This document shows positions 11,474-22,004 of a stretch of 22,004 bases of DNA, piece by piece. The notes under the pieces were generated by a model. It ran no database searches. It was not told the DNA's origin and worked only from the letters and a program-made list of their open reading frames with translations. The translations under genes and the position numbers were made by a program. The DNA comes from a virus. Numbering within the stretch: position 1 is the stretch's first letter; every line of letters starts with the position of its first letter. The stretch is taken from IMG/VR virus record IMGVR_UViG_3300044612_001186, positions 1 through 22,004 of that record. The stretch is one strand, 5' to 3'.

Positions 11474-11584
11474 TCAGAACGGTGCCTCCGGCAACTGCTC
11501 ACGCTTCTGGCGCTCGTACTCTTTGATCTGCTCAGGCGTCCAAGGCGTAGGGCCGCCGGGCGGCGGGAAGGGCCATGTGTTCAT
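11474..11584 (-). CDS. Pro-rich 36-residue microprotein
   Basis: This short reading frame runs from an ATG (11584-11582), which overlaps the previous gene's stop as ATGA, to a TGA at 11474-11476. It encodes 36 residues: N-terminal MNTWPFPPPGGPTPW, then a charged helix (TPEQIKEYERQKREQLPEAP). The exact 4-base overlap upstream and the 2-base gap to the next ATG leave no gap in the operon, which argues that it is translated. The TPEQI(K)EYE segment has the look of a short conserved phage peptide. The function is unknown; a peptide that binds and modifies a host protein is one possibility. Confidence 0.6.
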   Translation of the reverse strand: MNTWPFPPPGGPTPWTPEQIKEYERQKREQLPEAPF

Positions 11585-12210
11585 GCTTTCGCCTCGATTG
11601 TGTAGAACCAGTCGTCGCCAGCAGACCACTTGCGTGTGCCGTCCACCGTCCAGAAAGTCTTAGCCGCTTGGAAGTCAGGAAACTTGACTTCGGCAGGAAT
11701 CAAGCTCTGGTCATACCACAAACATCTGTTGTTAGGCTGGCAGGCAAACTGGCCGTTTTCCAGCTTGATGAAGTTGAACGATTTGTGCTCCTCGGCCTGT
11801 TCGGTAAACCCGGTGTCAGCGTCCATGCTGTCGGCGCAGAAGTCCACCGTAAACAGGTAGCGCCCGTGATACCACTGCTTGTCTTTGCCGAGGAATTTGA
11901 CGCCGAGGTTGCGTAGGCCGATTTTTTCGCAGACAGTGAATCGATAACCCATGCAATCCCATAACTGCAAGGTGTCGATCGGCAGATCGCCGTGTTCCTT
12001 TGCCCAGACATATGCGCTAATTGGCAGTTTGTCGTACAAAGCGCCGTAGTTTGGCAGCAGCGACTCAATGCGAAACACTTGCCCCCGCAGCGCCTTGATG
12101 CTTACCCAAATGGCAGGCTCAAGTTCGCCAAAACCCTTGGTGAAGTTGTAGAGGTACTCGCGCCGCACAAAACACTTGAGTGGCGGCAGACTTGCAATGA
12201 TATAGCTCAC
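11581..12210 (-). CDS. Conserved phage protein of unknown function, 209 residues
   Basis: The 209-residue protein opens with MSYIIASLPPLKCFVRREYL and continues with VWVSIKALRGQVFRIE-like strands, LPNYGALYDKLPISAYVW, a WDCMGY segment, a YLFTVDFC segment and SFNFIKLENGQFACQPNNR. I have the impression of a conserved family of unknown function in environmental phages, but cannot name a domain. The mix of beta strands with a Trp/Tyr/Cys-rich core suggests a compact globular enzyme or binding protein. No signal peptide or membrane segment is seen. It overlaps its neighbours by 4 bases on both sides. Base composition is more AT-rich than the flanking genes. Confidence 0.75.
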   Translation of the reverse strand: MSYIIASLPPLKCFVRREYLYNFTKGFGELEPAIWVSIKALRGQVFRIESLLPNYGALYDKLPISAYVWAKEHGDLPIDTLQLWDCMGYRFTVCEKIGLRNLGVKFLGKDKQWYHGRYLFTVDFCADSMDADTGFTEQAEEHKSFNFIKLENGQFACQPNNRCLWYDQSLIPAEVKFPDFQAAKTFWTVDGTRKWSAGDDWFYTIEAKA

Positions 12211-12423: not shown

Positions 12424-12633
12424 TTATAGTGCCCGGGCTTCTTTCAGAATCTCCATGCGCTCCCGGGCGGCGCGCAGGCTGGTGTAGCGCTGGTGCAGGC
12501 GCTCAAGAATCGACAGGCGCCGGCGGCCCGCGCGCTCGGCGTTGAGCAGCTCCAGCACCTCGTTTTCACTGAGCAGCGCCAGCTCTTTGTTCAGCTTTCG
12601 CCAGTTCGTTTGCAATCTTCTTCTCCAGTTCAT
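12424..12633 (-). CDS. Small basic helical protein, start uncertain
   Basis: The protein has 69 residues from the only ATG. It is helical and basic (LLNAERAGRRRLSILERLHQ, SLRAARERMEILKEARAL). From this start it overlaps the preceding gene by 68 bases and has no good ribosome site. A GTG at 12558 (codon 26), just after the preceding gene's stop, is an alternative and would give 44 residues. The 3' end is firm, because its TAA overlaps the ribosome site of the next gene. The function is unknown. Confidence 0.5.
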   Translation of the reverse strand: MNWRRRLQTNWRKLNKELALLSENEVLELLNAERAGRRRLSILERLHQRYTSLRAARERMEILKEARAL

Positions 12634-12757
12634 TGATCTGCCGACCCACGCGCAGCATGGCGCGGTCGGCGCGGTTGTACGCCTTGGCCCATTGACGCTC
12701 TTCGGCCTTGGACGCCTTGAGCTTGGCCTTGAGCAGCTTAATTTTTGTCGAGTCCAT
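12566..12757 (-). CDS. Small Lys-rich coiled-coil protein
   Basis: The 63-residue protein is helical along nearly its full length (KIKLLKAKLKASKAEERQWA, INELEKKIANELAKAEQRAG), with high Lys/Glu/Ala content. AAGGAG lies 4 bases before the ATG. The gene begins 20 bases inside the preceding 97-residue gene and its tail runs into the next small gene. No family is recognised. It could be a small structural or regulatory coiled coil. Confidence 0.6.
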   Translation of the reverse strand: MDSTKIKLLKAKLKASKAEERQWAKAYNRADRAMLRVGRQINELEKKIANELAKAEQRAGAAQ

Positions 12758-13031
12758 ATCGCTCCTTGATTACGCGAGTGATGTCACGGGGCGTCATGCC
12801 GGGGATCGCTGAGATGAGCGCGCACTCCATCGCCACCTTCTGCGCGAACTGGCGCATCTCTTTGACCGTCATCACCGCGATCGGCAGCTGCTCAGTGGCT
12901 GCGTCGCGGATCATCTCAATCAGCTCTTCGTCTTTGATCACACGCTGCTCCTTCCAATAGTTAATAGCGCGCTTGAGCGACCGGCGCATGTTTTCGGCAT
13001 ATGCCGCCGACAGTACGTCGTACTCGTTCAC
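12738..13031 (-). CDS. Small helical protein of unknown function, 97 residues
   Basis: The protein starts at a GTG that overlaps the helicase stop as GTGA. GGAGG lies 7 bases upstream, which supports this start. It is helical throughout (VLSAAYAENMRRSLKRAINY, DEELIEMIRDAATEQLP, VKEMRQFAQKVAMECALISA). It ends with TPRDITRVIKERYG, which could be a small helix-turn-helix-like or partner-binding tail. It is not recognised. It is tightly coupled to the helicase, so an accessory or regulatory partner is a reasonable but unproven idea. Confidence 0.7.
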   Translation of the reverse strand: MNEYDVLSAAYAENMRRSLKRAINYWKEQRVIKDEELIEMIRDAATEQLPIAVMTVKEMRQFAQKVAMECALISAIPGMTPRDITRVIKERYGLDKN

Positions 13032-14320
13032 TTCAGTTCCTCCATTGCTACGTCACTGATGGCGCGCTTGTCGTGCAGCGCGGCCCAAATCTTTTCGTCC
13101 ACGGTCTTGTTGGTCATCAGGACGTAGCACCAGACGTCGTGTCGCTGGCCGGAGCGGTGCAGTCGCCCAACGGTTTGTTCGTAAAGCTCAAGACTCCACG
13201 GCAAGGACAGAAAGACCATGTGTCGACCTCCATGTTGCAAGTTAAGGCCGTGACCTGCGGATTTTGGGTGCACTGCCAGAAGTGGAACCAAGCCGGCGTT
13301 CCATCGCTCAATGGCACCAGCATCGTCCAGCGTGGTGAGGTGTTTGTATCGTCGCTTGAGTTCGGCGAGTTCTTCTTGGTAGTTGTAGACGATGAGGGTG
13401 TTTGCATGTTGGTTCTCTTCCAGTAGGTCATCAAGGGCATCGAACTTGTGCGGGCTGAACCAGCGCGGCTCGGGTGTATAGACGAACCCGGACGACATCT
13501 GTTGCAGCTTCTGCGTGACCACGGCCGCGTTCTGGGCCACGGCAGCGGTGTCGGGAAACTGCACGATGAAGTCCTTCTTCATCGTCTCGTAGGGCTGGCG
13601 ATCCTCCAGCTCGACGCGCAGCTCGACCGTGTGCAGCGGCGGCAGCTTGTCCTTGTACTCGCCCGGCTCCAGCACGAACGTGGCCGGCTTGATGCGCGCC
13701 ATGACCTGCTCCAGCGCGCCGGGGCGCGGGGCCCACTCGTTGTAGTCCTTGTTGACGAGGTAGAAGTACTGTTGCAGGAAGGCGCCCTTGCTGCGGCCCA
13801 GCAGCTTCTGATCGATGATCTTGCACTGCCCGAAGACGTCCTCCAGACCGTTGCTGGTGAACGAGCCGGTCAGGCCCCAGCGGATTTTGATTGCGTCCAT
13901 GACCTTGAACAGCGCCTTGAAGCGCTTGCCCGAGGAGTTCTTGAGCTTGGTCAGCTCGTCGAACACCACGCCGTCGAAGATGCCAAGGTTCAGCTCGGAC
14001 AGCCATTGCAGGTTGTCGTAGTTGATGACCATGACGTGCGTGTCGGCCGCGTAGGCCACCAGACGCTGGCGCGGTGTGCCGATGCACACGGACATCGTCA
14101 GCTCGGGCGCCCACTTTGGCAGCTCGACCGGCCAGACGTCGGTGCAAACGCGCTTGGGCGCCACAACCAGCCAACGCTTGACCACAACCTCGCGCACCAT
14201 GTCGCGCATGGCCGTCAGCGTGAGCGCGGTCTTGCCTGCGCCCACCGGCGCCAGCACCATCGCCCGGTCGTGTTCGAACAGGAAGTCGGCGCCCTGATCT
14301 TGGTAGGGCCTCAGCTCCAC
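13028..14320 (-). CDS. SNF2-like superfamily 2 DNA helicase/translocase
   Basis: This 430-residue protein has complete SF2/SNF2 motifs: a Q-like RPYQDQGADFL start, Walker A PVGAGKT (residues 25-31), DELT Walker B (121-124), TGS motif III (151-153), motif V SAGHGLNLQHGG (about 354-364), and motif VI QTVGRLHRSGQ (about 382-392). The two RecA-like lobes are close together, as in compact phage SNF2-type helicases acting in replication or recombination. The start is GTG, 10 bases inside the preceding gene, with GGGAG 8 bases upstream. Codon use changes sharply at about 13165-13445, over the second lobe. It is separated by only one small gene from a VRR-NUC nuclease, a pairing well known in phages. 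Confidence 0.85.
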   Translation of the reverse strand: MELRPYQDQGADFLFEHDRAMVLAPVGAGKTALTLTAMRDMVREVVVKRWLVVAPKRVCTDVWPVELPKWAPELTMSVCIGTPRQRLVAYAADTHVMVINYDNLQWLSELNLGIFDGVVFDELTKLKNSSGKRFKALFKVMDAIKIRWGLTGSFTSNGLEDVFGQCKIIDQKLLGRSKGAFLQQYFYLVNKDYNEWAPRPGALEQVMARIKPATFVLEPGEYKDKLPPLHTVELRVELEDRQPYETMKKDFIVQFPDTAAVAQNAAVVTQKLQQMSSGFVYTPEPRWFSPHKFDALDDLLEENQHANTLIVYNYQEELAELKRRYKHLTTLDDAGAIERWNAGLVPLLAVHPKSAGHGLNLQHGGRHMVFLSLPWSLELYEQTVGRLHRSGQRHDVWCYVLMTNKTVDEKIWAALHDKRAISDVAMEELK

Positions 14321-14628
14321 TTCTTTGTCTCCCAGTTGTACCGGCGACTGCTGACGTATGCGGTCATCTCTTCGTCGGTCATGCGCGTGGTTACGGGCGG
14401 CACATACGGGTCAGGCGCGTACACGAACGGCTCGGTGCGGTTGTTCCACTCGTCAGCAATCTGCTTGGCGTGCGCCTCATCGGTCACCACAGCGCCGGGC
14501 TTGTCGGCAAACGTCAGCACGTTGACGCCGGTCTTGTTCATCACGCCCCACCACTTTGGGCCGACCTGCTCGGCGCGGTACGGGCCGACGGCAAAGTACT
14601 TAGCCGGCAATGCTTTTAAGCCACTCAT
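14311..14628 (-). CDS. Hypothetical protein between nuclease and helicase, 105 residues
   Basis: The chosen ATG at 14628 has AGGAG 7 bases upstream. The ATG at 14634 is too close to that site, and the longer frame to 14691 would lie wholly inside the nuclease gene. The protein starts MSGLKALPAKYFAVGPY. It has a beta-rich centre (GPKWWGVMNKTGVNVLTF), a helix (TDEAHAKQIADEWNN) and a charged tail ending in RRYNWETKKWS. The pattern suggests a small single alpha/beta domain. I recognise no family. It overlaps the nuclease gene by 29 bases and the helicase by 10, so it is part of the same operon. Confidence 0.7.
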   Translation of the reverse strand: MSGLKALPAKYFAVGPYRAEQVGPKWWGVMNKTGVNVLTFADKPGAVVTDEAHAKQIADEWNNRTEPFVYAPDPYVPPVTTRMTDEEMTAYVSSRRYNWETKKWS

Positions 14629-14875
14629 CGACATGCTCCTTTGACCACAGGCAGGCGTAACGCTGCCCCATGCGCGCCATCTCCGACGCAAAGTGTTTCT
14701 GCAGCGGCGACAGCCGGCCGCCGGGCGCCTTCAGCTCGACGAACCATGTGCTGCCGTCGGGCAGGCAGACGACGCGGTCGGCGACGCCTCGGTGCGCAGG
14801 GCTGGTGAACTTGTACGCTACGCCGCCCAGCTTCTTGACTTGGCTCACCAGATGAGCCTCGATTTGTTTTTCCAT
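14600..14875 (-). CDS. VRR-NUC domain nuclease
   Basis: The 91-residue protein starts at MEKQIEAHL. It has the VRR-NUC pattern: early Glu6, GVADRVVCLPDG with Asp33, FVELKAPGG with Glu47 and Lys49, and SPLQ with Gln59. It ends with a helical tail (HVDEWLKSI). Stand-alone VRR-NUC proteins are PD-(D/E)XK nucleases thought to cut branched DNA in replication and recombination. The open frame extends to 14950, but the extra 25 residues would be read through the promoter region and do not resemble the family, so 14875 is chosen. No ribosome site precedes it, and the predicted transcript start is about one base upstream, suggesting a leaderless mRNA. It is the first gene of the leftward operon. Confidence 0.8.
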   Translation of the reverse strand: MEKQIEAHLVSQVKKLGGVAYKFTSPAHRGVADRVVCLPDGSTWFVELKAPGGRLSPLQKHFASEMARMGQRYACLWSKEHVDEWLKSIAG

Positions 14876-14882
14876 GCGACGC

Positions 14883-14912
14883 ATCATAACATCGTCAAAA
14901 AGTTCTTGACAA
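14883..14912 (-). promoter_or_regulatory. Leftward sigma70-type promoter for the nuclease/helicase operon
   Basis: On the minus strand, TTGTCA (14912-14907) and TATGAT (14888-14883) are separated by 18 bases. This matches the TTGACA/TATAAT consensus at five and five positions. The predicted start point, around 14876, falls at the VRR-NUC ATG. Confidence 0.6.
14894..14910. promoter_or_regulatory. 17-bp near-palindromic operator candidate
   Basis: GTCAAAAAGTTCTTGAC reads as two 8-base half-sites around a central G at 14902, with seven of eight positions complementary. It overlaps the rightward -35 box and lies inside the leftward promoter spacer. That is the usual placement for a dimeric repressor or switch protein binding one face of DNA. 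Confidence 0.5.
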
Positions 14913-14936
14913 CCCTTTTTTGTTTTGTGGTAGCAT
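14906..14936 (+). promoter_or_regulatory. Rightward sigma70-type promoter for the replication operon
   Basis: A perfect TTGACA -35 box (14906-14911) is followed after 19 bases by TAGCAT (14931-14936), which matches TATAAT at four positions. A TG lies upstream of the -10 (TGTGG). The long spacer suggests moderate strength or dependence on an activator. The first gene starts 30 bases downstream. Confidence 0.6.
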
Positions 14937-14966
14937 GGCGGCTCGTTCAATCAACTGGAGTCCAAT

Positions 14967-16082
14967 ATGCAACACAGCAAGATCGTCGGCGGCTCGACCG
15001 CCAAGCGCGTCATCAACTGCCCCGGCAGTGTGGCGCTGGTTCAGAGAATGCCTCCCCAAGTGGAGAGTAAGTACGCCGCCGAGGGCACCATGCTGCACGC
15101 CTGCATGGAAGACCTTCTGGCCGATGGTGAGATGGGCGACGTCATCGCCAAGAACAAGCTCACCGAAGAGCAAGCCGACAAACTCCAGTACTGCCTTGGC
15201 GCTCTCGACGAGATCGACCCGAAGCAGGAGATGGTCTTCAACCAAGAGGTTGAGGTGTCGTTCGACGGCGTCAAGGGCCTTGAGGGCGTCTTCGGCAACG
15301 TCGACCTGATTGGCCGCCTTGGCGATCGCGTCATCGTGCTGGACTGGAAGTTCGGCGACGGCGTCATGGTCGAGGCCGAAGAGAACCCGCAGGGGCTGTT
15401 TTACGCTGCTGCGGCCATGCGTACCAAGTCGCTGGCATGGGCGTTCTACGACGCCAAGGAGATCGAGATCGTCATCGTGCAGCCCTTCTCAACCCGGCGC
15501 TGGGTGACGACCTTTGAGCGCGTGCTGGAATTCCGCGAGGAGCTGGTGCGCGCTGTCAAGCAGGCCGCCAAGGCCGACGCCCCGCTGGCGATCGGCGACT
15601 GGTGCCGCTGGTGTACAGGCAAACCCATCTGCCCTAAGATGACCGGCGCGATTGATCGCACGGTGCACATGAAGCTGGAGGCGCTCGCGCCCGAGGAGCT
15701 GTCCAAGGCGCTGGACTTGGCTGAGAAGCTGGAGTCCTTCATCGGCGACGCCCGCAAGCTGGCGCAGGAGCGCCTTGAGAAAAATATGCCCGTGCCCGGG
15801 TACAAACTTGTACCCAAGCGCGCGACGCGGCAGTGGACGAACACGGCCGACGCGGCCCATTGGATGGGTGAGAAAGGATTGGAACTCGATCAGATATTCA
15901 CCAAAGAGATCATCAGCCCTGCTCAAGCAGAGAAGGTGCTGAAAAAGAGCAAGCTGGCGCTGCCCGACAACCTCGTCGTGGCAGTGTCGAGCGGCAGCAC
16001 GTTGGCGCCGGAGAGCGATCCCCGGCCCGCCGTGCTCAACGTCGGGACGCAACTTGTTGCGGCCCTTTCTAAACTCCAGTAA
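14967..16082 (+). CDS. Cas4/RecB-like PD-(D/E)XK nuclease with Fe-S-type cysteines (DUF2800 family)
   Basis: This 371-residue protein has the RecB-family nuclease order: AAEGTMLHACME (His44), GNVDLIGRLGD (Asp113), VLDWKFGDG (Asp126, Lys128), and NPQGLFYAAA (Gln142, Tyr146). Cys18 in INCPGS and Cys213, Cys216 and Cys222 in DWCRWCTGKPICPK have the one-plus-three spacing that holds a 4Fe-4S cluster in Cas4 and AddB-type nucleases. I assign it to the DUF2800 phage nuclease family. It probably resects DNA ends for recombination-dependent replication. GGAG lies 6 bases before the ATG. It is the first gene of the rightward operon, and its likely single-strand-binding partner follows 11 bases later. 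Confidence 0.8.
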   Translation: MQHSKIVGGSTAKRVINCPGSVALVQRMPPQVESKYAAEGTMLHACMEDLLADGEMGDVIAKNKLTEEQADKLQYCLGALDEIDPKQEMVFNQEVEVSFDGVKGLEGVFGNVDLIGRLGDRVIVLDWKFGDGVMVEAEENPQGLFYAAAAMRTKSLAWAFYDAKEIEIVIVQPFSTRRWVTTFERVLEFREELVRAVKQAAKADAPLAIGDWCRWCTGKPICPKMTGAIDRTVHMKLEALAPEELSKALDLAEKLESFIGDARKLAQERLEKNMPVPGYKLVPKRATRQWTNTADAAHWMGEKGLELDQIFTKEIISPAQAEKVLKKSKLALPDNLVVAVSSGSTLAPESDPRPAVLNVGTQLVAALSKLQ

Positions 16083-16986: not shown

Positions 16987-17204
16987 ACCGAGAAGACACT
17001 ACCCGCATGGCGCGGGAGGCTGGGTTCGTAGGTTTTGATGGAGACAACGGGTCACTGCGGCGATTCGCCGCCCTTGTCGCCGCAGCCGAGCGCAACAAGC
17101 TGGCTCAGTGGATGATGGCGCACGGCTACGCCACAGGCCACGGCGACAGCATAGAAGACCTGCTGCAAGAGCTTGAGTGGCAGATTGCGGAGCGTACGCA
17201 ATGA
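16983..17204 (+). CDS. Small hypothetical protein upstream of DNA polymerase
   Basis: The 73-residue protein opens with MNREDTTRMAREAGFVGFDG, followed by RRFAALVAAAERNKLAQWM and an acidic end (IEDLLQELEWQIAERTQ). Short proteins with an 'REDxxRMAREAGF...RFAALVAAAER' pattern are, as I recall, common in phages and prophages of betaproteobacteria, with no known function. It overlaps both neighbours as ATGA, so it is co-translated with the 61-residue protein and with DNA polymerase. It has no membrane or metal motif. Confidence 0.7.
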   Translation: MNREDTTRMAREAGFVGFDGDNGSLRRFAALVAAAERNKLAQWMMAHGYATGHGDSIEDLLQELEWQIAERTQ

Positions 17205-19177
17205 GTATCCTCTGGATCGATTTTGAGACGCGCAGCCGGTGTGACTTGCCGGCGCACGGCGTCTACAACTACGCGCAAGACCCCAGCACTGAAGTGCTGT
17301 GCATGTCTTACGCCTTCAACGACGAAGACGTCGTGACATGGCGCCCCGGCGAGCCCTTCCCGCACCGCGTCTATGACGCTGTGCAGTACGGCATCACCAT
17401 CCGCGCCCACAACGCTGCCTTTGAGCGCCTGATCTGGACGTATGTCCTTGCGCCTGACTACAACATCTCCACGCCCCGGCTGGAGCAGTTTTACTGCACC
17501 GCCGCGCAGGCCCGTGCCAACTGCGGCCCGGGCAGTCTGGAGGACGTGGGGCGCTTTGCCAGCGCCGATATGAAGAAGGACTACCGTGGCGCGCAGCTGA
17601 TCCGTCTGTTGTCCGTGCCGCAGGCCGATGGCACCTTCCGCAAAGACCCTGAGCTGCTGGCTGAGATGATCGCCTACTGCGAGCAGGACGTGCGCGCCAT
17701 GCGGGCCATCTCCAAGGCCATGCGCGACCTGAGCGCCGAAGAGCTGGCCGACTACCACACCAACGAGCGCATCAACGACCGGGGCGTGCTGGTCGACGTC
17801 GACTTGTGCAAGGCCGCCGTCAAGTACGCCAGTGACGAGCTGGTCGAGATCGAAGAGATCGTGGCCGAGGTCACCGAGGGTGAGATTCAGTCGGTGCGCA
17901 GCCCCAAGATGCGCGAGTGGGTGCTGGAGCGGGTCGGCGAGCAGGCGCGCAAGATGATGACCGTCTACAAGGACGGCGAGCAGAAGTTCAGCATTGACAA
18001 AACCGTGCGCGCCAATTTGTTGGCGTTCGCCGAGGAGAACCCCGATGAAGTACCGCCCGACGTTGCGGAAGTTATCCAGTGCGCCGACGACCTCTGGGCG
18101 TCAAGCGTTGCGAAGTTCAGCCGCCTCGCAGCTCTTGCAGACGACGAAGACCGTCGGGTGCGAGGAGCCTTTGTATTTGCGGGTGGATCTGCTACGGGAC
18201 GGGCGTCGTCCTACGGCGCTCAAGTTCACAACTTTACCCGGAAGGTCGCGGCTGCCCCAGAAGACGTTCGTCATGCAATGGTCAGAGGTCATGCGATTGT
18301 CCCAAAGTACGGAAAGCGCGTAACCGACGTTTTGAAGGGAATGCTTCGTCCTGCGCTTGTGCCGGCGCCGGGGCATGTGCTCATCGTAGCAGACTGGTCT
18401 GCGATCGAGGCGCGCATGAACCCGTGGCTGTCGGCCGATGCGACGTCCGAGGCCAAGCTGGAGCTGTTCCGCACCGGCGCTGACGTCTACAAGGTCAACG
18501 CCAGCAAGACGTTCCACGTCAGCGTGGGCGAGATCGACAAAGAGCAGCGCCAGATCGGCAAGGTGCAGGAGCTGGCCTGCGGCTACGGCGGCGGCGTCGG
18601 GGCCTTCGCTGCAATGGGCCGCATCTACGGCGTGCACCTGCCCGAGTCGGACGCCCGCCGGATGGTCGACGCATGGCGCCGGGCCAACCCTTGGGCTGTC
18701 GCCTACTGGACAGCTCTGGAGTCGGCCTACACCCGAGCCATGCGCCACAAGAACCATGAGTTCCACGCCGGCCGCGTGACGTACATGTTCGACGGCCAGC
18801 ACCTGTGGTACGCCCTGCCATCGGGCCGCATCCTGTGCTACCCCTATGCCCGGCTGGAGAGCGACGGGGTATCCTACGCCAAGGCGTCATGGAAGCCCGC
18901 AGCCGATGCCAAGGAGTGGCCCCGGGCGCGGCTGTGGAAGGGTCTGGCTTGCGAAAATATCACGCAGGCTGCGGCCAACGACGTCCTGCGCGCGTCTCTG
19001 CGCCAGCTCGACGGCGTGGTGCTGCATGTGCACGACGAGATCGTGCTGGAGGTGCCGCAGGACACCGCAGACGCTGCCAAGGCGCGGCTGCATGAAGTGA
19101 TGTGCACCCCGCCGGTATGGGCAAACGGTCTGCCCTTGGAGGCCGAAGTCAATGTGATGACCAGATACGGAAAGTAA
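17201..19177 (+). CDS. Family A DNA polymerase with 3'-5' exonuclease
   Basis: The protein has 658 residues from the ATG at 17201, which overlaps the previous stop. An upstream ATG at 17177 would add eight residues that do not look like the family. The N-terminal DEDD exonuclease shows IDFETRS (Asp7, Glu9), AHNAAFE and YCEQDVRAM. The polymerase motifs are intact: motif A VADWSAIEAR with Asp398; motif B with Arg450, Lys454, Tyr462 and Gly463 in R-x3-K-x7-YG spacing; motif C VVLHVHDEIV with His611, Asp612 and Glu613. There is no 5'-3' exonuclease domain, as usual for phage enzymes. It copies the phage genome together with the downstream primase-helicase. Codon use is clearly different at 18050-18400. 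Confidence 0.92.
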   Translation: MSILWIDFETRSRCDLPAHGVYNYAQDPSTEVLCMSYAFNDEDVVTWRPGEPFPHRVYDAVQYGITIRAHNAAFERLIWTYVLAPDYNISTPRLEQFYCTAAQARANCGPGSLEDVGRFASADMKKDYRGAQLIRLLSVPQADGTFRKDPELLAEMIAYCEQDVRAMRAISKAMRDLSAEELADYHTNERINDRGVLVDVDLCKAAVKYASDELVEIEEIVAEVTEGEIQSVRSPKMREWVLERVGEQARKMMTVYKDGEQKFSIDKTVRANLLAFAEENPDEVPPDVAEVIQCADDLWASSVAKFSRLAALADDEDRRVRGAFVFAGGSATGRASSYGAQVHNFTRKVAAAPEDVRHAMVRGHAIVPKYGKRVTDVLKGMLRPALVPAPGHVLIVADWSAIEARMNPWLSADATSEAKLELFRTGADVYKVNASKTFHVSVGEIDKEQRQIGKVQELACGYGGGVGAFAAMGRIYGVHLPESDARRMVDAWRRANPWAVAYWTALESAYTRAMRHKNHEFHAGRVTYMFDGQHLWYALPSGRILCYPYARLESDGVSYAKASWKPAADAKEWPRARLWKGLACENITQAAANDVLRASLRQLDGVVLHVHDEIVLEVPQDTADAAKARLHEVMCTPPVWANGLPLEAEVNVMTRYGK

Positions 19178-19180
19178 AAA

Positions 19181-21505
19181 ATGACAAGACAGGCAACTAT
19201 GCAATTTCTGGAGTTTCTGACAGGACTGGCGCCGGAGGGGGAGACGGCGCTGATCGTGCGGCAGAAACCGCAGCGCAAAGACGGCGAGATTCAGCTGCAC
19301 GCTGACGGGGCCGTCAAGTGCACATGGCCGGCGTACCTGCCGGACATCAAACGCATCAAGGACGATCAGGCATGGTACGGCAACACCGCCAGCTTCATCG
19401 TCGATCGCTTCCGCGACGGTCACATCAGCGCCGGCGCTGCCAACTGCGAGTACTGCCTTGTGCTGGTGCTCGACGACATTGGCACCAAGTCCAAAGAGCC
19501 CTCGCTGGCGCCGACGTGGAAGATGGAGACGTCGCCCGGCAGCTTTCAGTGGGGCTACGCCTTCAGCGACGACCAGCCCACCAAGGCCGAGTTCTCTGCG
19601 GCCATCAAGGCCATCGCCGACGCCGGCTACACCGACCCCGGGGCGATCAACGCTGTCAGAAACTTCAGGCTGCCGGGCTCGATCAATCTGAAGCCCGGCC
19701 GCAACAACTTCGCGGCCAAACTGGCCGAGTTCCACCCCGAGCGTGAGTTCTCCCTGCAAGAGATATGCGACGCCCTCGGCGTCGTGCCGGCCGAAGCCGA
19801 CTCGCTGACCGTGCGGCCCATCCGCGTGCACGACACCGGCGGCGACGACGTCTTTGCGTGGCTGTCCGAGAAGGGGCTGGTGCTGCGCAACCCGAACCCT
19901 GAGGGCTGGGCCGGCGTCATCTGCCCGAACCACACCGAGCACACCGACGGCAACCCAGAGGGCCGCTACCTGCCGGCCTCGCGGGCCTACTGCTGCCTGC
20001 ACTCGCACTGCATCGACTTCGACACCAAGACCTTTCTTCAGTGGGTGGCCGACAACGGCGGCCCCAAGCATGACCCGGGCATTCGCGACGACCTGATGGC
20101 GTCGGTCATGCACGATGCCCTCCAGAAGTTGGAGCCCACCACGTTCTTCACCGACGACGCTGCCAAGGTCATCGAGGAGGTCGAGCGCAAGGAGGTCGGC
20201 CGGCTGCAGAAGGCGCAGTGGTATGAACGATTCGCCTACGTCCAGACTGACGACAGTTACTTCGACATGATCGACCGGCGCGAGATCAGCCGGGGCACGT
20301 TTAACGCCATCTTCCGGCATGTGTCGTGCCGCTCGATCCACAACCAGCGCAAGGTCGAGGCCAGCGTGTGCTTCGACGAGAACCGCCAGAGCATGAATGC
20401 CAAGACCCTGATCGGGATCACCTACGCCGCCGGCGAGTCGGTGCTGGTGGCCCGGGACGGCGACGTCTACGGCAACCGCTGGCGAGACGCCCGGCCGGTC
20501 GTGGACAAGCGCGGCCTTGCGTCCGTGACGCCGTGGCTGGAGCACTGCGCGGCGCTGGTGCCTGATGCCAGCGAGCGCGAGCACCTGTTCAACGTCATGG
20601 CGTACAAGGTGCAGCACCCGGAAGTCAAGATCAATCACGCTGTGCTGCACGGCGGCGATCAGGGCTGCGGCAAGGACACCATGTGGGCGCCCTTCATCTG
20701 GGCCATCTGCGGCCCGGGCATGAAGAACCGGGGCTTGCTGGACAACGACACGCTCAACAGCCAATGGGGCTATCAGCTGGAATCCGAGATTCTCATCATC
20801 AATGAGCTGAAGGAGCCAGAGGCGCGGGAGCGCCGGGCGTTGGCGAACAAGCTCAAGCCCATCATCGCGGCCCCGCCGGAGATGCTGCCGATCAACCGTA
20901 AGGGTTTGCACCCATACGACATGGTCAACCGAATGTTCGTGCTCGCGTTTTCCAATGACCCTGTGCCGATCTCGATCGACAGCCAAGACCGGCGCTGGTT
21001 CTGCATCTGGTCATCGGCCCCGCGCATGAACCCTGACGCGGCCCTGAAGCTGTGGAACTGGTACAAAAGCGGCGGCTTTGAGGCGATCGCCAGCTGGTTG
21101 TATGCCCGTGACGTGAGCGCGTTCAATCCTGCAGCGTCGCCGTCGTGGACTGAGTTCAAGGCCAACCTTGTCGAGCACGGCATGAGCCTTGCCGAGTCGT
21201 ATCTGGTCGACTTGATGCGCGAGCGCAAAGGTGAGTTCGCCCGGGGCGTGGTCGGCTCGCCGTTCCACGCGCTGTGCGACCGTCTGGCCGGTGCTGCGCC
21301 GTCGGGCGTCAAGGTGCCGCAGGCTGCGCTGCTGCACGCGCTCAAGGAGGCAAACTGGGTCGACCTTGGACGTGTATCGTCCGGCGACCTGCCCAGCAAA
21401 AAGCACCTGTTCTGCGCGCCCGATATGGTCGGCATGGTCAGTAAGTCTGAAATGCGGCGGCTGGTCGAGGAGGCGCCTCCGCTGCGCATGGCACTTGTAA
21501 AGTGA
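19181..21505 (+). CDS. Primase-helicase with SF3-type ATPase domain (DUF5906-like)
   Basis: The protein has 774 residues. The N-terminal part (about 40-190) looks like a RepB/AEP-type primase: VLVLDDIGTK with Asp98 and Asp99, and RNFRLPGSINLK at 160-171. A metal-binding-like module follows, with Cys248-x2-His251 and Cys271, Cys272, His274, His276 and Cys277. The C-terminal ATPase has Walker A GGDQGCGKD (491-499), Walker B-like EILIINE (536-542), and a sensor Asn592 in FVLAFSND followed by QDRRWF, as in SF3 helicases of the DUF5906 group. Combined primase and helicase proteins of this type start and drive replication. The start lies 3 bases after the polymerase stop. The repeat array directly downstream may be its binding site. 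Confidence 0.85.
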   Translation: MTRQATMQFLEFLTGLAPEGETALIVRQKPQRKDGEIQLHADGAVKCTWPAYLPDIKRIKDDQAWYGNTASFIVDRFRDGHISAGAANCEYCLVLVLDDIGTKSKEPSLAPTWKMETSPGSFQWGYAFSDDQPTKAEFSAAIKAIADAGYTDPGAINAVRNFRLPGSINLKPGRNNFAAKLAEFHPEREFSLQEICDALGVVPAEADSLTVRPIRVHDTGGDDVFAWLSEKGLVLRNPNPEGWAGVICPNHTEHTDGNPEGRYLPASRAYCCLHSHCIDFDTKTFLQWVADNGGPKHDPGIRDDLMASVMHDALQKLEPTTFFTDDAAKVIEEVERKEVGRLQKAQWYERFAYVQTDDSYFDMIDRREISRGTFNAIFRHVSCRSIHNQRKVEASVCFDENRQSMNAKTLIGITYAAGESVLVARDGDVYGNRWRDARPVVDKRGLASVTPWLEHCAALVPDASEREHLFNVMAYKVQHPEVKINHAVLHGGDQGCGKDTMWAPFIWAICGPGMKNRGLLDNDTLNSQWGYQLESEILIINELKEPEARERRALANKLKPIIAAPPEMLPINRKGLHPYDMVNRMFVLAFSNDPVPISIDSQDRRWFCIWSSAPRMNPDAALKLWNWYKSGGFEAIASWLYARDVSAFNPAASPSWTEFKANLVEHGMSLAESYLVDLMRERKGEFARGVVGSPFHALCDRLAGAAPSGVKVPQAALLHALKEANWVDLGRVSSGDLPSKKHLFCAPDMVGMVSKSEMRRLVEEAPPLRMALVK

Positions 21506-21507
21506 CG

Positions 21508-21614
21508 AAAAACGGGAGCGTTGCCCTGCAAAAAACGGGAGCTTCGCCCTGCAAGAATCCAAAAAACGGGAGCGTTTGCCTGCAAAAAACGGGAGCGTTG
21601 CCCTGCAGGAATCC
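21508..21614 (+). repeat. Iteron-like array: four 22-bp repeats in two 54-bp units
   Basis: Copies begin at 21508, 21531, 21562 and 21585. Each is A5 followed by ACGGGAGCGTTGCCCTGC-like sequence with at most a few changes (GCTTCGCC in copy 2, GCGTTTGC in copy 3). Copies 1-2 and 3-4 are each spaced 23 bp and followed by AAGAATCC or AGGAATCC, so a 54-bp unit is itself duplicated. On the minus strand each copy reads as a short GGG...CCC hairpin followed by a T-run. Confidence 0.85.
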
Positions 21615-21639
21615 ATGCGCGGCGCTCCCCCGCGCGTAT

Positions 21640-21885
21640 GGCCGGGCGGCCGGGCGGCCGGCCGGGCGCCGGCCAGCTGGCGCCGGCGGCCACGGCCGGC
21701 AGCAGCTCGGCGGCCACCGGCTCGGCCAGCTGGCGCCGACGGCCGGGCGCCGGCAGCAGCTCGGCGGCCACCGGCCCGGCCACGGCCGCGCGCCGGCCAG
21801 CTGGCGGCCGCTCAGGCGCGCGCAGCAGCTCGGGCAGGCCACGGCCCCGGCCGGCGGCCGTCGGCCAGCTGGCGGCCCGGCCCGG
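21640..21885. repeat. Very GC-rich degenerate tandem repeat
   Basis: The palindromic core GGCCAGCTGGC occurs four times, at 21671, 21724, 21795 and 21863. A second element, GCAGCAGCTCGGCGGCCACC, occurs at 21699 and 21753 (54 bp apart), with a partial third copy near 21822. The first two units are close to 54 bp and later ones diverge to about 70 bp. The sequence is almost purely G and C, with many GGCCGGC blocks and the potential to fold into long hairpins. Confidence 0.75.
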
Positions 21886-21889
21886 GCAT

Positions 21890-21920
21890 AAAAAAGCCCC
21901 GACGGTTTAGCGTCGGGGCT
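21890..21920 (-). terminator. Strong leftward intrinsic terminator
   Basis: AGCCCCGACG (21895-21904) pairs perfectly with CGTCGGGGCT (21911-21920) across a six-base loop. On the minus strand the hairpin is followed by TTTTTT (from the A-run 21890-21895). It therefore stops transcription coming from the right and does not serve the primase-helicase operon. Confidence 0.85.
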
Positions 21921-21967
21921 GGAAAGCCGGGAGGGCCGGCCGGGGCAACTGCGCGCGCTGCGCGCGG

Positions 21968-22004
21968 TTATAAGTCTAGCAGCTCGACCAGCAGCGCGGC
22001 CACG
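21968..22004 (-). CDS. C-terminal end of a gene entering from the right
   Basis: On the minus strand, one frame is open from the window edge to a TAA at 21968-21970, encoding only VAALLVELLDL. The strong leftward terminator starts about 48 bases after this stop, which supports a leftward gene ending here. Eleven residues are too few to identify it, and another minus frame is also open at the edge, so the frame choice is uncertain. Confidence 0.4.
   Translation of the reverse strand, partial: VAALLVELLDL

Follow-up and report, generated by a model that had tools for sequence, protein, structure and literature searches.

Overlapping divergent promoters

The stretch of viral DNA analysed here (the window; 22,004 nucleotides, from a record that is a fragment of a genome) carries at 14883–14936 two divergent promoters with a common -35 region. 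They probably form a compact bidirectional hub for early transcription by the host sigma70-type RNA polymerase, one that would need no dedicated switch; in other words, the locus resembles a fixed, compact site of initiation, not a proven genetic switch. On the plus strand, the rightward -35 box TTGACA (14906–14911) agrees with the consensus at all six positions, a strong sigma70-type match, and is separated by a spacer of 19 bp from the extended -10 element TGG-TAGCAT (14928–14936; hexamer 14931–14936), with a predicted start at about 14942–14943. On the minus strand, the leftward -35 box TTGTCA (14907–14912) has five of the six consensus bases and overlaps the rightward box by 5 bp; a spacer of 18 bp leads to the extended -10 element TGT-TATGAT (14883–14891; hexamer 14888–14883) and to a predicted start at about 14876–14875. 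The hexamers on the two strands face apart, and both spacers are within the range of 16–19 bp. The two -10 boxes are 42 bp apart and the predicted starts approximately 67 bp apart.

Each -35 box is preceded by an A-tract. The A5 tract upstream of the rightward box (14897–14901, plus strand) is proximal UP-like, and the sequence has an A6 tract upstream of the leftward box (14916–14921, minus strand). The two tracts give rise to a 27-bp pseudo-palindrome, CAAAAAGTTCTTGACAACCCTTTTTTG (14896–14922), whose centre is the shared -35. In addition, a 17-bp dyad of the form GTCAA-N7-TTGAC, GTCAAAAAGTTCTTGAC (14894–14910; seven of eight pairs), covers this site and is, for one subgroup, a candidate operator. 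The rightward -35 box itself forms its right arm, and its left arm falls within the leftward spacer.

The leftward operon begins with the VRR-NUC nuclease gene (14600–14875, minus strand), in which homology begins at the ATG at 14875, followed by a small protein, an SNF2-type helicase gene (13028–14320, minus strand) and small genes. The rightward operon, on the plus strand, begins with the DUF2800/PD-(D/E)XK exonuclease gene (14967–16082), whose ATG at 14967 is preceded by the Shine-Dalgarno sequence GGAG (14957–14960), a motif also carried by relatives; a phrog_9528 protein, the family A DNA polymerase (17177–19177) and the DUF5906/primase-helicase-like gene (19181–21505) follow. The remaining window holds structural and lysis genes for the most part. 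According to the sequence-only reading, these nuclease/helicase and polymerase operons start from divergent promoters whose -35 boxes overlap; all of its coordinates were correct, the matrix described below agrees with them, and the 5' ends that it expected, near 14876 and 14942, agree with the starts predicted here.

Only one forward and one reverse match in the 22,004 bases score 10 or more with a sigma70 matrix, and both are this pair; the matrix was built from E. coli frequencies with a bonus for TGn. The same promoter pair provides the two best matches in the complete close relative G001. When the 91-bp intergenic region was shuffled 5000 times with dinucleotides preserved, a divergent pair with overlapping -35 boxes at score 8 appeared in 0.2% of the shuffles, and the strength of the real pair was reached in none of them. 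A simple consensus scan detected the leftward promoter alone, because its spacer limit was 18.

A predicted leaderless leftward message

The ATG of the VRR-NUC gene (14873–14875, minus strand) is 7 nt past the leftward -10: TATGAT is followed by GCGTCGC and then by the start codon, with no Shine-Dalgarno sequence. The leftward mRNA is therefore apparently leaderless, with a predicted 5'-terminal AUG from the ATG at 14875. The leftward -10 hexamer (14883–14888) covers two upstream in-frame ATG candidates, at 14887 and 14884, which a gene caller might choose. It should be mentioned that homology, and not the promoter or its -10, defined the start at 14875. Neither the coverage of these ATGs nor the leaderless message was part of the sequence-only reading, and the prediction of a leaderless leftward mRNA is apparently new in this analysis.

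Relatives show the same association. A total of 160 loci having both flanking genes was collected from IMG/VR and reduced to 46 nonredundant clusters (<88% DNA identity). The best -10 hexamer was sought within 45 nt of the start codon. Among the 33 clusters that have no Shine-Dalgarno sequence, 25 show it ending 6–7 nt ahead of this codon, versus 0 of 13 where a Shine-Dalgarno sequence is present (Fisher P 2e-6, which is overstated since the clusters are related). The eight exceptions are, by elimination, clusters in which VRR-NUC and DUF2800 are at least 442 nt apart; VRR-NUC there most likely belongs to a longer leftward operon. L088 is a natural counter-example: the shared -35 and the dyad are kept, but the gene has a GGAGG leader. 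In the clades of L035, L055 and L065, an ATG or GTG 7 nt past the -10 is accompanied by a Shine-Dalgarno start 33 nt downstream. This 5'-uAUG layout, in which an AUG at the 5' terminus is combined with a Shine-Dalgarno start, is known from some E. coli mRNAs (PMC4965119). The three clades resemble them in carrying both start types, as predicted from sequence alone, whereas the window is without a downstream Shine-Dalgarno start. These observations suggest that environmental phages infecting Betaproteobacteria may often make early mRNAs of the leaderless type, and that they are overlooked because gene callers seek Shine-Dalgarno sequences.

Conservation of the shared -35 region

A shared -35 box, a -10 at 16–18 bp and an ATG or GTG 6–7 nt further on are kept together in 24 of the 46 clusters. 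The box takes the form TTGTCAA, TTGTGCAA or TTGCACAA in these clusters, and across relatives it can be written as TTGNCAA / TTGNNCAA on both strands. Since TTG is present on both strands of these motifs, each is a -35 for leftward as well as rightward transcription. L047 and L154 have an unrelated gene inserted ahead of VRR-NUC, next to the promoter, and the start codon of this gene is at the same distance from the -10. Four or more consecutive A residues adjoin the rightward -35 in 24 of the 25 clusters with a shared -35 (the above 24 and L088), so that the combination of shared -35 and A-tract is near-universal among them. The rightward spacer, 19 bp in the window, is 16 bp in most relatives. 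One public record was added beyond the 46 clusters and was not comparable: in MW202483.1, DUF2800 and VRR-NUC are divergent, yet no correspondence could be established between its promoters and those of the window.

Other clades form different palindromes on their overlapping promoters. L069 has GTTGACA-N6-TGTCAAC on the overlap. L134, L098 and L153 have TAGCACA-N10/11-TGTGCTA, which spans two extended -10 boxes. In L156, a 46-bp near-palindrome, TGTATCACGAAAAAAGATGTTG-tg-CAAAAGTTTTTTACATGATACA, extends upstream of VRR-NUC across both -10 boxes and the shared -35. Several of these palindromes are individually weak against shuffles (p ~0.13–0.20). Because the palindromes differ between clades, the feature that is constant is the overlap of two promoters rather than this one operator sequence.

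L069 belongs, with L062, L066 and L032, to a separate clade having inverted -35 boxes (GTTGACA-N5/6-TGTCAAC), in which each -35 sits within the spacer of the other promoter. L069 has a Shine-Dalgarno-led leader at this inverted promoter.

Proposed mode of transcription

In the bidirectional hub proposed here, the pseudo-symmetric core, namely the A-tract, TTGACAA and T-tract, would supply a -35 region to polymerases of either orientation. Transcription starting rightward near 14942 would give a Shine-Dalgarno-led mRNA for the exonuclease, polymerase and primase, and leftward initiation at about 14875 would give a leaderless mRNA beginning at the VRR-NUC start codon. Because the predicted starts are closer together than two polymerase footprints, two polymerases would not be able to bind together. 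If simultaneous occupancy is impossible, the two operons would be co-expressed by alternating occupancy, and a dedicated switch would be unnecessary. The GTC half-site that completes the dyad seems to be no promoter element. Its conservation in one subgroup suggests that these phages may have acquired a regulator.

Three points stand against this model. The promoter matrix is an E. coli one, the 19-bp rightward spacer in the window is suboptimal, and the dyad is conserved, in its GTC arm as well as its centre, beyond the needs of a bare promoter.

The dyad and the search for a regulator

The sequence-only reading had proposed to test whether the dyad is conserved above its flanks. This held in the TTGTCAA subgroup: in its 13 clusters, conservation of the 19-bp block TTGTCAAGAACTTTTTGAC clearly exceeds that of the flanks, with approximately 1.4 bits in the TGAC arm, 0.5 in the next four spacer positions and 0.15–0.7 from the -10 to the ATG. 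It did not hold throughout the 25 clusters with a shared -35, among which the arms are perfect in 10, match at four of five positions in one and are absent or degraded in 14. Ten clusters have the GTC of the left arm without variation although the spacer bases beside it differ among them, and L107 has a longer repeat, TAACCTGTCAAAAA-c-TATTTGACAAGTTA. When the -35 is changed to TTGCAC or TTGTGC, compensation of the arms in frame was not seen; four clusters with these boxes show a match at four of five arm positions after a shift of 1 bp.

A search of the 22-kb window for further copies of the 17-mer, as the sequence-only reading had proposed, found it once only. Each dyad-bearing genome searched has one copy with perfect arms and no extra site of this kind elsewhere, and sites with one mismatch are approximately as frequent as those of a reversed-pattern control. 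The window contains 21 odd 17-bp dyads of equal quality (seven of eight pairs). The dyad could thus have arisen by chance, and its interest rests on its conservation.

The genes flanking the promoters are VRR-NUC and DUF2800, in agreement with the earlier statement that no repressor gene is recognisable nearby. A search for the HTH_3 (CI-like) repressor family gave a match above the cut-off in 0 of 20 relatives. A Phage_integrase match was found in one of the 20 (G017) and none in the complete G001. With no HTH_3 match and a single integrase among 20, these phages look virulent from their gene content. Scans of the small genes of G001 and of the window revealed no DNA-binding family. A small coiled-coil protein (12566–12757 of the window) was tied to the dyad by blastp and was rejected, as a profile search finds its gene everywhere.

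Alternative explanations of the symmetry

The dyad may be no more than the symmetry of ordinary promoters: a palindromic TTGACAA with an A-tract, the GTC being either ancestral or a spacer contact of sigma70. We give this explanation an even chance, and it is compatible with the bidirectional hub lacking its optional regulator. TTGACAA is nearly its own complement, dyads of the same quality abound in the window, and several clades build other palindromes from their own overlapping promoters; the invariance of GTC amid varying spacer bases is what it leaves unexplained. That invariance would be accounted for by a true operator, on which a dimeric regulator of the phage or host would block one or both promoters, for early shut-off or to set their ratio. 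This is a tentative proposal that we consider somewhat unlikely. The conservation of the non-promoter TGAC arm over the adjoining spacer, the perfect arms in 10 of 25 clusters, the extended repeat in L107 and the one perfect-arm site per dyad-bearing genome speak for it. However, the dyad has disappeared from clades in which the shared -35 persists, its right arm coincides with the -35, phage repressors do not usually have just one site, the search for an HTH_3 repressor found none and the gene that seemed to track the dyad proved universal.

The sequence-only reading had gone further and suggested that one bound regulator could choose between the nuclease/helicase and the polymerase operon. 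The overlap of the -35 boxes would permit this, and strong activation of an E. coli bidirectional promoter in one direction can repress the other (PMC12825309). The suggestion is nevertheless very improbable: the dyad is not universal and its right arm is the -35 itself, other clades have other palindromes, no regulator gene was found, and both operons encode replication or recombination functions that are likely needed together. Furthermore, the basal activity of the E. coli bidirectional promoters tested was too low for competition (PMC12825309), which appears there only if one side is strongly active (PMC12825309); the near-consensus promoters of the window could be within the range where competition appears.

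It is also conceivable, although we think it unlikely, that in this lineage of apparently virulent phages the symmetric core, serving both early operons as their -35 and having one leaderless arm, was rebuilt repeatedly as differing palindromes with the promoter overlap retained, that exclusion was selected to balance the two operons and that a dyad-binding regulator came later in one subgroup. Mutual exclusion of polymerases would then be a selected balancing device, and the regulator would be of a new kind. The relatives make up a natural series in which the degree and kind of promoter overlap vary while the flanking genes stay constant, so that polymerase competition and leaderless initiation can be tested by comparison.

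Comparison with known systems

The lambda PRM and PR promoters are divergent and back to back, with -35 boxes that do not coincide and with three operators. The lambda cI mRNA is leaderless (PMC4965119, PMC9031893). The present locus is similar in having back-to-back divergent phage promoters and one leaderless transcript, here predicted, but the leaderless gene is a nuclease and not a repressor, and there is at most one dyad. A lysis/lysogeny switch of the lambda type does not fit with respect to the repressor, the integrase and the several operators.

The bidirectional promoters of E. coli and Salmonella described by Warman, Grainger and co-workers (PMC12825309, PMC10268837) are likewise near-symmetric DNA that accepts polymerase in either orientation, one binding excluding the other. 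They share the -10, and their starts are 7–25 bp apart, usually 18 (PMC12825309, PMC10268837). Here, in contrast, the -35 is shared, the predicted starts are approximately 67 bp apart and each would drive an mRNA. Sharing of the -35 instead of the -10 places the locus outside the published definition of a bidirectional promoter. In the Pr/Pc pair of pLS20, one promoter's -10 and the other's -35 are proposed to occupy the same bases, and Rco, encoded adjacently, acts by looping (PMC4207663). Both cases involve physical overlap of divergent promoters, at which polymerases must exclude each other (PMC4207663); the register of the overlap is different, and the window has no counterpart of the adjacent regulator or of looping. 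The locus is filed among overlapping divergent promoters, as a variant with a common -35. Literature searches of partial coverage found no earlier account of overlapping -35 boxes in phages, which is weak evidence.

Other features of the window and its relatives

Many of the loci L001–L160 carry insertions of unrelated small ORFs to the left or right of the promoter, and the distance between VRR-NUC and DUF2800 ranges from 76 to 1788 nt. This intergenic region looks like an insertion hot spot beside the early promoters. Relatives were found in contigs of Betaproteobacteria MAGs; this association by itself hints at a Betaproteobacteria host. In the distal part of the leftward operon, the protein encoded at 11584–12210 (minus strand) matches phrog_3704, labelled ferredoxin / host takeover, with an E value of 1e-73. 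The region past the primase-like gene, approximately 21500–22004, is very GC-rich and its translations look internally repetitive; it probably consists of non-coding repeats. G001 is 37,970 b long with a terminal repeat of 127 b, and is approximately 95% identical to the window where aligned. Direct terminal repeats of 122–127 b are present at the record ends of G001 (L177/L178), G005 (L181/L182), G013 (L191/L192) and G026 (L209/L210); each of these records, about 37 kb long, is therefore probably a complete genome.
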